A model generated the notes under the pieces. It did not search any database, had not been told where the DNA came from, and worked only from the letters and a program-made list of their open reading frames with translations. A DNA stretch of 36,281 nucleotides from a virus, in IMG/VR virus record IMGVR_UViG_3300036835_000339, positions 1 to 36,281 of that record. One strand, written 5' to 3'. Shown one piece after another: positions 7,940 through 15,591 of this stretch. A program made the translations under genes and the position numbers. How positions within the stretch are numbered: position 1 is the stretch's first letter; each line of letters begins with the position of its first letter.

Positions 7940-7963
7940 TGCTATCATCCCGTCTATCGGGAA
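7940..7963 (+). promoter_or_regulatory. Extended -10 promoter overlapped by TTCCCG-type operator (excisionase-integrase)
   Basis: TGCTATCAT (7940-7948) is an extended -10; no good -35 is seen. The palindrome ATCCCG-TCTAT-CGGGAA (7947-7963) overlaps its end, and a lone TTCCCG lies at 7926-7931, 21 bases upstream. A second inverted repeat TGTGCC/GGCACA (7965-7981) follows. Repressor bound here would block excisionase and integrase transcription. Confidence 0.55.
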
Positions 7964-7999
7964 GTGTGCCGTTGTGGCACAATGATGGGAGTCACGCCG

Positions 8000-8398
8000 A
8001 TGAGTACCGCCCCGCGCCAGCCGTCGTTGATCGTCCCGCTCGTCCCCGCGCGCCCGGTCGCCGTGCCCTGGCCCGTCCGCATCCAGAAAAAGATCGAGCT
8101 CAAACGGACCGTCGCCCTCGCCCCGCAACCCGGCGAACGCCTCACCGTGAGCGTGGCCGAGGCCGCCGATCTGCTCGGCATTTCCCGCCGGACCGCCTAT
8201 GAGCTGGTCAAAGCCGGCGAGATCCCGAGTCTGAAACTGCGGCAAACGATTCGCGTGCCCTATCAGGGCTTAGTTGAGATGATCGAAGCGGCCTGCGCCG
8301 CGCATCGGGGGATCGATCAGCAATGGCGCTCACACCCAAGAAACGGGTCAACAAAGACGGATCCGAAACGTTCACCCTACGGCTCGACCTCGGAGTAA
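8000..8398 (+). CDS. Excisionase-like MerR/HTH_17 DNA-binding protein
   Basis: 132 residues from ATG 8000, which has GGGAG eight bases upstream; earlier in-frame starts (7964, 7982, 7985) lack this. Residues about 55-100 form the HTH_17 excisionase-type winged helix: LTVSVAEAADLLGISRRTAY, ELVKAGEIPSLKL, then a hydrophobic strand and helix. Such proteins bend attachment-site DNA and set the direction of integrase. The N-terminal 50 residues are Pro/Val-rich. The 3' end overlaps the integrase start by 76 bases in another frame, so the two are co-transcribed. It could also be a helper regulator rather than a true excisionase. Confidence 0.65.
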   Translation: MSTAPRQPSLIVPLVPARPVAVPWPVRIQKKIELKRTVALAPQPGERLTVSVAEAADLLGISRRTAYELVKAGEIPSLKLRQTIRVPYQGLVEMIEAACAAHRGIDQQWRSHPRNGSTKTDPKRSPYGSTSE

Positions 8399-9549
8399 AT
8401 CCGCTCACCGGCGAGCGCGACCGGCCGTACATCAACGGACGAACTGAGGGCGAATGTATCGCCAACTACCTTGAGGAGCGGCGGCGGCGCAAACCGCGAC
8501 GCGACAAAACGGTCTTTCGCTCTGAGCTCACCTACTCGGAATGGGTGGCCGAATGGCTGGCGATGCGCGAGGGCAGCGTCCGCCCGAAAACCTGGCGCAA
8601 CGAGAAGTACTCCCTGCACGCCAGCGCCGAGCCCTTCCTCGGCCGGCGCAAACTCCGCGAGATCGACGAATTCATCATCGCCGATTGGCTGGTCTGGCTG
8701 CGCGACGAGCGCGGGCTCGAGCCCGGCACGCGCAAGCGCCTCAAGATCCTGGTCGCGCAAACGTTTGAGGCGGCCAAGCGCTGGGGCGTGATTCCCGAAA
8801 ACGTGGTACGCAACGTCGACACGCCCATCGGCAAGCGCAGCAAAGAGCCGGTCTACCTCACCGACGACGAACTCAACCGGCTTGACGCGGTCTGCCAGGC
8901 CGACGAGCTCGAGCCGGTCTGGAGCCTCTTGATCGCGACCGGCGCCCGGATCAGCGAAGTCCTGGGTCTGCGCTGGGACAACGTCGACCTCGCCGCCGGG
9001 CACCTCAGGATTGAGGAGCAGCTGGTCGACCTCGGGCCGGGCAACGGCCGCGGATTGGCCGAGCCGAAAACTCCGCGCGGGGTCCGCACCGTGGCGCTCG
9101 AGCCGTGGGCGCTCGAGCGCCTGCGCACCTACCGCGCGGCCGAGCACGTCCGCCGGCTCGGCCGGGTTGGCTGGAACCCCGCGCGCTTCGTCGTCGTCAC
9201 CCGCGCCGGCAAGGTCCCGTGGGCGGAAACGATCAATCGCCGGCTCGAGGGATTAGCCAAGCTGGCCGGCGTCCGCCCGGTGACGGCCCACGATTTCCGG
9301 CACTCCCATATCGACTACCTGCGGCGCCGGGGCTGGCCCGATGCCGCGATCATGGCGCGGGTCGGGCACGCCAGTAGCCGGCAGCTCGACACCTACACCG
9401 GGCGCTACGCCGGCGATCAAGCGGCACTGGTCGAGACGTTGCCGGCGCGGGTTGGCCTAATCGCCGAAACCGTTTGGCCTAATGATGGCCTAATGGAACC
9501 GAACGGGAAGCAAGATGAGTGGACTGATCTGGAGCTCTCCGGGGACTAG
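8323..9549 (+). CDS. int: Tyrosine recombinase (phage integrase)
   Basis: 408 residues. The N-terminus (1-65) is an arm-binding domain with GSETFTLRLDLGVNPLTGER. Residues about 70-165 are the SAM-like core-binding domain. The catalytic domain (about 175-370) has the full set: R209 in ATGARISEVLGLRW, K249 in AEPKTPRGVRT, H323 and R326 in AHDFRHSHIDYL, H349 in RVGHAS and the nucleophile Y358 in LDTYTGRY. It would insert the phage at a bacterial attachment site. The last 35 codons are built partly from the GGCCTAAT repeats, which suggests that the phage attachment site overlaps the gene end. The start is fixed by the typical N-terminal pattern despite the 76-base overlap with the excisionase gene. 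Confidence 0.93.
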   Translation: MALTPKKRVNKDGSETFTLRLDLGVNPLTGERDRPYINGRTEGECIANYLEERRRRKPRRDKTVFRSELTYSEWVAEWLAMREGSVRPKTWRNEKYSLHASAEPFLGRRKLREIDEFIIADWLVWLRDERGLEPGTRKRLKILVAQTFEAAKRWGVIPENVVRNVDTPIGKRSKEPVYLTDDELNRLDAVCQADELEPVWSLLIATGARISEVLGLRWDNVDLAAGHLRIEEQLVDLGPGNGRGLAEPKTPRGVRTVALEPWALERLRTYRAAEHVRRLGRVGWNPARFVVVTRAGKVPWAETINRRLEGLAKLAGVRPVTAHDFRHSHIDYLRRRGWPDAAIMARVGHASSRQLDTYTGRYAGDQAALVETLPARVGLIAETVWPNDGLMEPNGKQDEWTDLELSGD

Positions 9550-9815
9550 TTAGGCGTCGATTGCGCGACAAGTGAGCGGGGCTTCGTCTCGGGGATCAAG
9601 CTCATCATGAATGTCGCTGAGAAGCACAATCGTGAAACTTCCCGTTTTTTTCCGCAATCTGCTAACGATTTGTGCGGGGAACTATTCCCGTTCTCGGGAA
9701 TACGTCGGTGATCAGTGCGCCCCGCCACACTGCTTTTGCGCAGCGTTCGGCCTAACGATGGCCTAATGGCGAGCGCGCAGTGGCCTAATGGGCACGGATT
9801 TGGCCTAATGGAACC
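9454..9815. repeat. Phased GGCCTAAT repeats: candidate attP arm sites
   Basis: Seven copies of (T)GGCCTAAT(G) or a one-base variant, all on the + strand, have their GG at 9454, 9476, 9487, 9749, 9760, 9782 and 9802. Steps within clusters are 22, 11, then 11, 22 and 20 bp, about one or two DNA turns. Two copies extend to matching GGCCTAATGGAACC. The clusters flank about 200 non-coding bases after the integrase stop. This layout fits integrase arm-type sites around a core, which itself was not identified. Confidence 0.55.
9676..9701. promoter_or_regulatory. TTCCCG-type operator in the attP region
   Basis: ATTCCCG-TTCT-CGGGAAT (9684-9701) is a perfect inverted repeat. A further half site GGGGAA lies at 9676-9681, forming a nested GGGAA-CTA-TTCCC. 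It matches the operator family seen at 7947, 10358, 11495, 20594 and 31629. No promoter is evident here, so repressor might act on recombination or transcription into the repressor gene. Confidence 0.5.
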
Positions 9816-9822
9816 CACTTCC

Positions 9823-10263
9823 CTAGCCCGCACGATTCGGCCCCGGTAAGCGCTCGGCGATCTTGACGATCGTCTCGTCCCGGATGCGGTGATCGGCGAG
9901 GGCATAGAACCAGGGCAGCGTCGCCGCCAGGAGCGCCTCGTCGACCGAATTGAGGAGCGCCGCGAGCTCGGCCCGGATCACTCCCGGCGCCAGTTCGTCG
10001 CGACTGCGGTGGCCGGCGGCGAGGAGGACGACGTCGGGATCGAGATCGAGCGCGGTGGCAATGATCGCGCAGTAGCGCGGGGTCGGACGCTGCTCGTTGT
10101 TTTTCCACTTGTAGACGAGGCTGGCATAGGGCAGACCGGCCACCTCGCGAAAGTGATAGAGGGTCCAGCCGCGGCGGTCGAGCTGGCGCATCAGCCACCC
10201 GCCGAAGTCGATGGTCCGGGCTTCCGCACCGCGCGCCGGCGCGGTCGTCTCATCAGTGTCCAT
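9823..10263 (-). CDS. Leftward HTH (Cro/CI type) regulator, candidate lysogeny repressor
   Basis: 146 residues, the only leftward gene in the lysogeny module. Residues about 18-85 form an HTH_3 domain: WLMRQLDRRGWTLYHFREVA, GLPYASLVYKWKNNEQRPTP, then IIATALDLDPDVVLLAAG. The C-terminal half (about 90-146) is helical with no LexA-type Ser/Lys peptidase motif, so RecA-driven self-cleavage is not expected. It faces the early promoter at 10317 divergently across about 230 bases, the classic arrangement for a CI-like repressor. Its own promoter could not be resolved. Binding to the TTCCCG palindromes is inference. The attP-type repeats lie just past its stop. Confidence 0.72.
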   Translation of the reverse strand: MDTDETTAPARGAEARTIDFGGWLMRQLDRRGWTLYHFREVAGLPYASLVYKWKNNEQRPTPRYCAIIATALDLDPDVVLLAAGHRSRDELAPGVIRAELAALLNSVDEALLAATLPWFYALADHRIRDETIVKIAERLPGPNRAG

Positions 10264-10316
10264 TCGTCGTGACTCCCCAACGACGCGCTCCCGTTGCCGT
10301 GACTACAACGGAAACA

Positions 10317-10374
10317 TTGACAAAGTGTCGAGTGGATTGTATACGAGCGGGACAAGGTTCCCGGACCTCGGGAA
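10317..10374 (+). promoter_or_regulatory. Main early promoter with TTCCCG operator
   Basis: TTGACA (10317-10322), a 17-base spacer and TATACG (10340-10345) form a near-consensus sigma70 promoter pointing to the early genes. The expected start is about 10352. The palindrome TTCCCG-GACCT-CGGGAA (10358-10374) lies at about +6 to +22, where bound repressor would block escape or elongation. The rest of 10264-10490 holds a GCCGGG/CCCGGC hairpin near 10411-10430 and no gene. Confidence 0.7.
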
Positions 10375-10490
10375 GGTCCATCCCTAGTGTACCAGTCTCC
10401 GGTCGCTTCGATCGCCGGGATGCGCCGCCCGGCGCCAACCTACGATGCAGCCAGCACGAGCGGAGTCCGCGTTTACTCGAGGGGAGAGCA

Positions 10491-10790
10491 ATGCCGCCCG
10501 CCGCCGACCATTTCTCGGTATCCCGTCTCGTCCTCCTCTATCGCCGCGCCGGGGTCGCGCCCGACGACTACCGCGAGGCCGTGAGCACCGCGGCCGATCT
10601 CATCATCAACGCCCTGATCGCCACCGGCTTTGCCGAGGCCGAGTCCCCGCCCGGGGTGATCGCGCTCGCGCGCCAGGAGCAGGGCAGCGAACTCCTCGGG
10701 ATCATGACCGAACCCGTTCCCCAAACTACGACGTTCCTGCTACAATTAGCGACGAGCTTCGATTGGGGAGCGTTGTCGCTGATCACCTAA
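10491..10790 (+). CDS. First early gene, unknown function
   Basis: 99 residues from the ATG at 10491 with AGGGGAG just upstream; longer frames would run over the promoter and operator. The sequence is helical (SRLVLLYRRAGVAPDDYREA, then AADLIINALIATGFAEAE) with no recognised domain. Being the first gene after the main early promoter, it may be a regulator or anti-host factor; this rests on position only. A promoter-like element (10726-10746) lies inside its 3' end. Confidence 0.6.
   Translation: MPPAADHFSVSRLVLLYRRAGVAPDDYREAVSTAADLIINALIATGFAEAESPPGVIALARQEQGSELLGIMTEPVPQTTTFLLQLATSFDWGALSLIT
10726..10746 (+). promoter_or_regulatory. CTACGA/extended -10 promoter before annealing gene
   Basis: CTACGA (10726-10731), nine bases, then TGCTACAAT with -10 TACAAT (10741-10746). 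The same layout occurs at 18058, 18552 and 32962. It lies inside the previous gene, 58 bases before the start at 10805. Confidence 0.45.
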
Positions 10791-11663: not shown

Positions 11664-12383
11664 ATGAGCGTCAAGATCATGACTGCGGTGTGGGAACTCA
11701 AACTGAGCCACGCGGAAAAGTTGGTGCTGTTGGCGTTTGCCGACAACGCCAATGATGAGAACCGGGCCTGGCCGTCGGTCGCACGGGTGGCCTGGAAATC
11801 GGGCTACTCCGAGCGTCAAGTCCAGCGGATCATCCACGACATGATCGATCGCGGCCTGCTCAAGATCGAAGCGCCGGCCACCCCGACCGATCCCACGAAA
11901 TACAGCATCCATCCCGAACACGGGGTACCACTGCCCCCGTTCCACGCCCGGAACCACAGGGGTGACAAAACGGCACCGGGTGACACTATGACACCGGGTG
12001 ACAACGGGCGCCGACGGGGTGACATAGCTATGTCACCCGAACCGTCAAGAGAACCGTCAAGAGAACGGTCTCCCTCTCCCCCGCGCGCGAGCACGTCGCT
12101 CCCGGCCGACTTCACGGTGACGAAGGCGATGCGTGATCAGCTGACGCTGGCCGGCGTCCGCCTGACCTCGGCTGAAGTCGCGCGCGGGACGGCGAAATTC
12201 ATCGCCAACGCCCAGGCCAAAGACGAGCGCCGGGCCGACTGGCCGGCAGCCTGGCTGCGCTGGATGCTCGACGAGCCGGGGTTTACCGCGCCGCGATCAA
12301 GGCGCGGCGGGCGCGGAGCTGAGCCCCTGATCGATCCCGAGCAATACAAAGGCGACAACTACCTGAAAGTCCGCGGAGGATGA
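11664..12383 (+). CDS. Replication initiator-like winged-helix protein (lambda O-like layout)
   Basis: 239 residues with GAGG nine bases before the ATG. Residues about 10-75 form an HTH_36-type winged helix: LSHAEKLVLLAFADNAND, WPSVARVAWKSGYSERQVQR, IIHDMIDRGLLKIE. This domain is common at the N-terminus of phage replication proteins. The middle (about 95-145) is disordered, low complexity and encodes the iteron cluster. The C-terminal part (about 150-215) is helical, with a WPAAWLRWMLDEP stretch like that of phage proteins that recruit helicase. It would bind the iterons and load the host replisome. The resemblance to lambda O is in layout, not proven homology. Confidence 0.65.
   Translation: MSVKIMTAVWELKLSHAEKLVLLAFADNANDENRAWPSVARVAWKSGYSERQVQRIIHDMIDRGLLKIEAPATPTDPTKYSIHPEHGVPLPPFHARNHRGDKTAPGDTMTPGDNGRRRGDIAMSPEPSREPSRERSPSPPRASTSLPADFTVTKAMRDQLTLAGVRLTSAEVARGTAKFIANAQAKDERRADWPAAWLRWMLDEPGFTAPRSRRGGRGAEPLIDPEQYKGDNYLKVRGG
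11957..12065. other. Iteron cluster inside the initiator gene: candidate replication origin
   Basis: Four direct copies of GGGTGACA start at 11960, 11978, 11996 and 12017, with steps of 18, 18 and 21 bases. The fourth joins an inverted copy TGTCACCC (12031-12038) to make a perfect 22-base palindrome (12017-12038). Two tandem 12-base repeats CCGTCAAGAGAA follow (12042-12065). Iterons within an initiator gene are known from lambda O. No strongly AT-rich unwinding stretch is seen next to them. Confidence 0.6.
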
Positions 12384-15359: not shown

Positions 15360-15591
15360 CTATCCGGCGACCGATCGGCAGCGCGCCTATCTCGCCGACC
15401 TCGCCCGGCTCTTGCACATCAGTGATGCTCAACTCGACCAGATCGCACGCGAGCAACATCAAGCTCCACTCGCTGCCCTGACCATGCAGCGCGCTTCGAG
15501 CCTGATCAATCTGCTCGAGGCGTGGCGCGAGCGACCGGCCGATTTTCTGCGCAGCCGCGGCCAAGTCGACTTGCCGGGCTTTGGGTCATGA
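15349..15591 (+). CDS. Small helical protein, unknown
   Basis: 80 residues. The ATG at 15349 is preferred to 15316 because it starts the helical fold directly and limits overlap with the previous gene. The sequence (TDRQRAYLADLARLLHI, then TMQRASSLINLLEAWRERPA) resembles the short DUF3072-like or SAP-like helical repeats found in phage proteins, but the match is not firm. Its stop overlaps the next start (ATGA). Confidence 0.55.
   Translation: MSSNYPATDRQRAYLADLARLLHISDAQLDQIAREQHQAPLAALTMQRASSLINLLEAWRERPADFLRSRGQVDLPGFGS

Follow-up and report, generated by a model that had tools for sequence, protein, structure and literature searches.

The phage contig analysed here (referred to below as the window, i.e. 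the whole 36,281-nucleotide stretch of the virus record) originates from a temperate phage, with terminase and portal genes further on, and carries a set of short, regularly spaced repeats around the 3′ end of its integrase gene. We asked which protein these repeats serve, and whether they mark the site of phage integration (attP). The original prediction regarded them as arm-type integrase sites placed on both sides of a core.

Organization of the repeats

Three genes make up the neighbourhood of the repeats. An excisionase-like gene, xis (7964-8398, + strand; Pfam HTH_17, E 9.5e-13, and PHROG excisionase families), lies just upstream of, and overlaps, the gene of a 408-aa tyrosine integrase, int (8323-9549, + strand; Pfam Phage_integrase, E 7e-19). 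Convergent with int is a repressor gene (9823-10263, − strand; phrog_3949, transcriptional repressor, E 2.1e-6). Six exact copies of GGCCTAAT, all on the + strand, and a seventh with a mismatch (GGCCTAAC, at 9749) form two clusters, starting at 9454, 9476 and 9487, and at 9749, 9760, 9782 and 9802. The steps between copies (22 and 11 bp in the first cluster; 11, 22 and 20 bp in the second) are close to whole helical turns, as is the step between the clusters (262 bp, i.e. 24.95 turns at 10.5 bp). The original prediction had given these start positions and spacings correctly throughout, and all seven predicted copies are present as sites, although only six of them are exact. Its assignment of three copies to the coding end of int and four to the gap before the repressor stop agrees with the int stop codon at 9547-9549. 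The last repeat ends at 9809, 14 bp short of the end of the repressor ORF (9823).

When extended to 11 bp, the copies within int are site 1 (TGGCCTAATCG, 9453-9463, reading-frame offset 0), site 2 (TGGCCTAATGA, 9475-9485, offset 1) and site 3 (TGGCCTAATGG, 9486-9496, offset 0), the latter two forming the int-side pair. The repressor-side pair consists of site 4 (CGGCCTAACGA, 9748-9758, with two deviations) and site 5 (TGGCCTAATGG, 9759-9769), and is followed by sites 6 (9781-9791) and 7 (9801-9811), both also TGGCCTAATGG. The two pairs and their immediate surroundings are closely similar (segments 9471-9496 and 9744-9769 are 92% identical along 26 nt). Between both arrays lies the interval in which a putative attP core would be expected (9495-9748), the first part of which (9495-9549) is still int coding sequence.

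No further exact copy of GGCCTAAT was found on either strand of the whole 36-kb window, and dinucleotide-preserving shuffles of the whole window contained a mean of 0.3 and a maximum of 2 copies. In 40 shuffles no 8-mer occurred more than four times per 400 bp (six times in the real window). Helical phasing was also upheld: at 10.5 bp per turn the resultant length was 0.92, a value equalled in 0.2% of random placements (same two clusters, period free between 10 and 11 bp), although this percentage overstates independence, since the 11-bp pair looks duplicated and the steps are not fully independent.

Conservation of the repeats in a sister phage

A related contig (L090, IMGVR_UViG_3300036826_000113) permitted a comparison of the locus. 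The portal and terminase proteins of this sister phage are 87% and 84% identical to those of the window, the xis product and the repressor 53% and 56%, respectively, and the integrase only 34%. Copies of GGCCTAAT are nevertheless present in the sister, at L090 15557 (− strand), 15589, 15600, 15853, 15864 and 15882 (− strand), together with GGCCCAAT at 15571. Two pairs of the form GGCCTAATGRNGGCCTAATGGA are found: 15589/15600 within the 3′ end of int, like 9476/9487 (sites 2 and 3), and 15853/15864 in the gap ahead of the repressor gene, like 9749/9760 (sites 4 and 5). The pair-to-pair distance is 264 bp in the sister versus 273 bp in the window. The sister pairs are surrounded by outlying copies, two of which are inverted, one of these (15882) near the counterpart of site 6; thus, the common direction of the repeats, which holds for all seven copies of the window, is not a rule.

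The consensus of all 14 sites of both phages is the 11-bp word TGGCCTAATGR. Relative to the int reading frame the copies show offsets of 0, 1 and 0 in the window and 2, 1, 1 and 0 in the sister. Since they occupy different reading frames and both strands, the signal resides in the DNA and not in the encoded protein, which indicates that selection on these repeats acts on DNA rather than protein sequence. The retention of both the word and its two-arm layout beside an integrase of only 34% identity strengthens the view that arm-type sites lie on both sides of a core. This conservation comparison rests on two phages, i.e. the window and the one relative in which sites were found; the exact word pair GGCCTAATGNNGGCCTAATGG was detected in no other record of the viral collection. 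A blastn map of the window against the sister showed that the two ends of each contig are adjacent in the other. Judged from this map, each contig seems to be a circularly permuted phage genome whose int-repressor gap is unsplit, which is what an intact attP should show.

The sister locus also contains a hairpin followed by a T-run (AAAAACCGCG...CGCGGTTTTT, L090 15648-15676), which overlaps the int stop codon and is likely to be the int terminator. A terminator scan of the equivalent region of the window found none.

Iterons are typically direct repeats in helical phase, and those around the int end might accordingly belong to a replication origin. However, the 9454-9809 repeats are neither within nor beside a replication-initiator gene, and a separate, iteron-like array is located inside the initiator gene at 11664-12383. 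It comprises four GGGTGACA repeats (11960, 11978, 11996 and 12017) plus an inverted TGTCACCC, and this segment (11960-12042) is likely to be the replication origin. The sister carries a different repeat array (L090 18027-18098), downstream of its repressor gene, and its GGCCTAAT set includes inverted copies. An iteron function of the int-repressor repeats is therefore highly improbable.

Candidate binding proteins

The product of int contains the catalytic positions GAR (207-209), HDFRH (323-327), GHA (348) and Y358, and the presence of the R, H-x-x-R-H and Y residues places the predicted protein in the tyrosine recombinase (phage integrase) family. The two integrases are not uniformly diverged: identity is 60% over residues 1-45, as against 33% in the catalytic part (Fisher p 0.001). 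In the predicted structure, residues 1-55 are modelled as three strands and a helix, and would constitute the arm-binding domain; lambda Int could be aligned to the integrase model from residue 2 to 354. With the N-terminal domain alone, neither a PDB fold search nor Pfam returned an integrase match. The weak PDB matches included dsRNA-binding domains (best Z 5.0, 56 residues, 3.5 A); the N-domain of Tn916 Int is reportedly a variant of the dsRNA-binding domain fold. In lambda Int it is this N-terminal end that binds the arm-type sites (PMC4880445). The part in which the two integrases are most alike is thus the one expected to contact the arms, which favours reading the repeats as integrase sites.

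The main rival reading is that the repeats are Xis sites within attP, i.e. that the HTH_17 protein binds direct repeats spaced by one helical turn and assists excision by bending the arms. In lambda, Xis sites are found among other bending-protein sites between the core and the arm sites and not as pairs on both sides, whereas both phages studied here have the same pair on either side, the sister also having inverted outliers, an arrangement that is a better fit to arm-type sites. In favour of this rival, the HTH_17-type Xis is likewise conserved in the sister (53% identity) and might itself bind the repeats; a precedent is provided by the related wHTH protein BldC, which binds 9-bp direct repeats head to tail, with one DNA turn per molecule (PMC11963761). 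On balance we consider Xis binding unlikely.

The repeats approach the end of the repressor gene to within 14 bp, and the repressor itself is conserved in the sister (56% identity); hence they could be operators of this repressor or of another regulator, or could control int expression. They are situated, however, at the 3′ ends of two genes, three of them within the coding end of int, and no promoter-like or terminator-like match was detected in the region 9300-10500. Better operator candidates are palindromes close to TTCCCG-N4/5-CGGGAA (at 7947, 9685, 10358, 11495, 20594 and 31629), several of which occupy the intergenic gaps that precede xis, the repressor gene and the terminase gene. Their number was not significant when compared with shuffled sequences, and only their positions are suggestive. 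Regulatory sites of this kind are, as an explanation of the repeats, very improbable. One of these palindromes (TTCCCGTTCTCGGGAA, at 9685) was also considered as the core, but was rejected because similar palindromes occur in other gene gaps, which makes an operator likelier.

Search for the core, the host and related loci

Neither a tRNA-like sequence nor any Rfam match was found in the core interval of the window; that of the sister gave weak Rfam matches to non-tRNA families, below the cut-offs. The terminase resembles those of Thermobifida and Streptomyces phages, and our guess for the host phylum is therefore Actinomycetota. Comparison of the core region with 198 sampled Actinomycetota genomes yielded a best E of 9.5e-4, which is chance level over that many genomes, and no attB or lysogen junction was found in the sampled genomes.

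A single-protein search for relatives of the integrase retrieved none from viral contigs and, from genome contigs, only a distant integrase of a MAG (L002, 30% identical); with an alignment as query, nothing beyond the sister and a single weak, partial match was retrieved. In 396 genomes of the phylum of this MAG, among them the 198 mentioned above, there was no match to the repeat pair and no lysogen detectable by a portal search, the latter result showing little. No DNA similarity to named phages or plasmids was observed.

Exact pairs at 11-bp spacing were also encountered in contigs L095-L097, where they immediately precede an unrelated phage gene, and in L094, near another unrelated gene; as no integrase was seen beside them, these were rejected. 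Relaxing the pair search yielded 51 contigs, and of the 54 loci screened from the exact and looser searches, only L118 and its near copy L136 contained direct repeats beside the 3′ end of an integrase gene. In L118 (3733-3982), an unrelated phage contig, three ATGTGGCCTAA repeats directly follow the int stop codon, and two TGTGGCCCA repeats are present about 229 bp further on, across a partial tRNA-like fragment (22 bits, below the Rfam cut-off of 29). It is likely that L118/L136 carry an attP of the same design, in which the arm word is similar and a tRNA-like core is visible. The similarity of the word may reflect common descent or coincidence.

Proposed structure of the attachment site

As in a lambda-type attP, copies of a short word are found on both sides of a central interval (three and four in the window), and the same is true of the sister. 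The repeats are very probably arm-type sites of the phage's own tyrosine integrase, marking its attP. Starting from the observed repeats, their clustering and phasing, their conservation beside a diverged integrase and the gene order, we infer integrase binding, the position of the core and the mechanism, the last after lambda and mycobacteriophage precedents.

In the proposed mechanism, the small N-terminal domain of the integrase would bind the 11-bp TGGCCTAATGR word in the two arrays, and the core-binding and catalytic domains would work on a core in the intervening segment (9495-9748). Bridges between arms and core would hold together the complex for integration at the host attB; excision would be favoured by Xis (7964-8398). 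The int-side arm would be contained in codons of the integrase tail, past the catalytic domain, and the other arm would lie beside the repressor stop. With the arms so placed, integration would leave xis, int and one arm together at one prophage end, and the repressor gene would mark the other end along with the second arm. In the lambda convention the arm beside int is P′. The presence of arm sites on both sides is supported, but the arm built into int, called the P arm in the original prediction, should thus be named P′.

If the core lies in the intergenic part, int would remain intact at one prophage end, with the repressor gene at the other. Alternatively, the core might be located within the last int codons (9495-9546), so that integration would replace the integrase tail and alter its activity, as in Mx8; in that case, the arm words would turn the end of the gene into an element of a recombination switch. 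We regard this variant as improbable.

The locus provides a concrete candidate attP and a defined 11-bp arm word for a phage group seen here only in metagenome contigs. The phage pair may also be viewed as a natural experiment, in which the integrases are 34% identical, the arm word is kept and the N-terminus is the most conserved part of the protein; this fits arm specificity evolving apart from core specificity. Given a host, the integrase-attP segment (about 8.3-9.82 kb) could possibly serve as an integration cassette.

Comparison with known attachment sites

Predicted repeat pairs of 10-11 bp flank the core in published mycobacteriophage attP sites (PMC3203893, PMC3706429), in accordance with the two-sided reading of the arms. 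In cluster K mycobacteriophages the predicted arm-type repeats are 11 bp long and paired on each side of the core; in Pixie, the left side has a direct pair plus one inverted outlier, and the right side three direct copies (PMC3203893). The attP sites of this cluster, especially those of Pixie and CrimD, thus resemble the putative attP of the window in having paired 11-bp predicted repeats that flank the core. They differ in their consensus, in being located 5′ of int (the sites of the window are 3′ of and inside int), and in a core that matches a host tRNA or tmRNA gene. In cluster J, attP is 3′ of int, with the core approximately 100 bp from the int end and flanked to the left and right by paired direct repeats of 10 bp (PMC3706429). 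The position on the 3′ side of int and the pairs on both sides are shared with the window; on the other hand, cluster J has the consensus TGCATAC..., four sites and a tRNA-Leu core, and no arm is described in the int coding end.

The ICEMlSymR7A element contains five 10-bp arm-type motifs in a 283-bp attP, all of which are needed for efficient integration (PMC11963761). Like the putative attP of the window, that of this element has several short arm-type motifs, but the element is an ICE and not a phage, with a different consensus (TGKTGGTATC) and gene order. In myxophage Mx8, attP lies within int and integration changes the int 3′ end (PMC6070905). Attachment-site elements are therefore found within int coding sequence in both phages, although in Mx8 this applies to attP itself and in the window only to the proposed arm-type sites.

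As proposed for the window, two arms with sites for the integrase N-domain bracket the core of the lambda attP, next to int and xis; lambda differs in its five arm sites and its mapped IHF, Xis and Fis sites. Overall, the comparison supports an ordinary but well-formed attP of the lambda type, one arm of which lies within the coding end of int. Such an arrangement is well known from other phages, its less common feature being that about half of the sites are located inside int.
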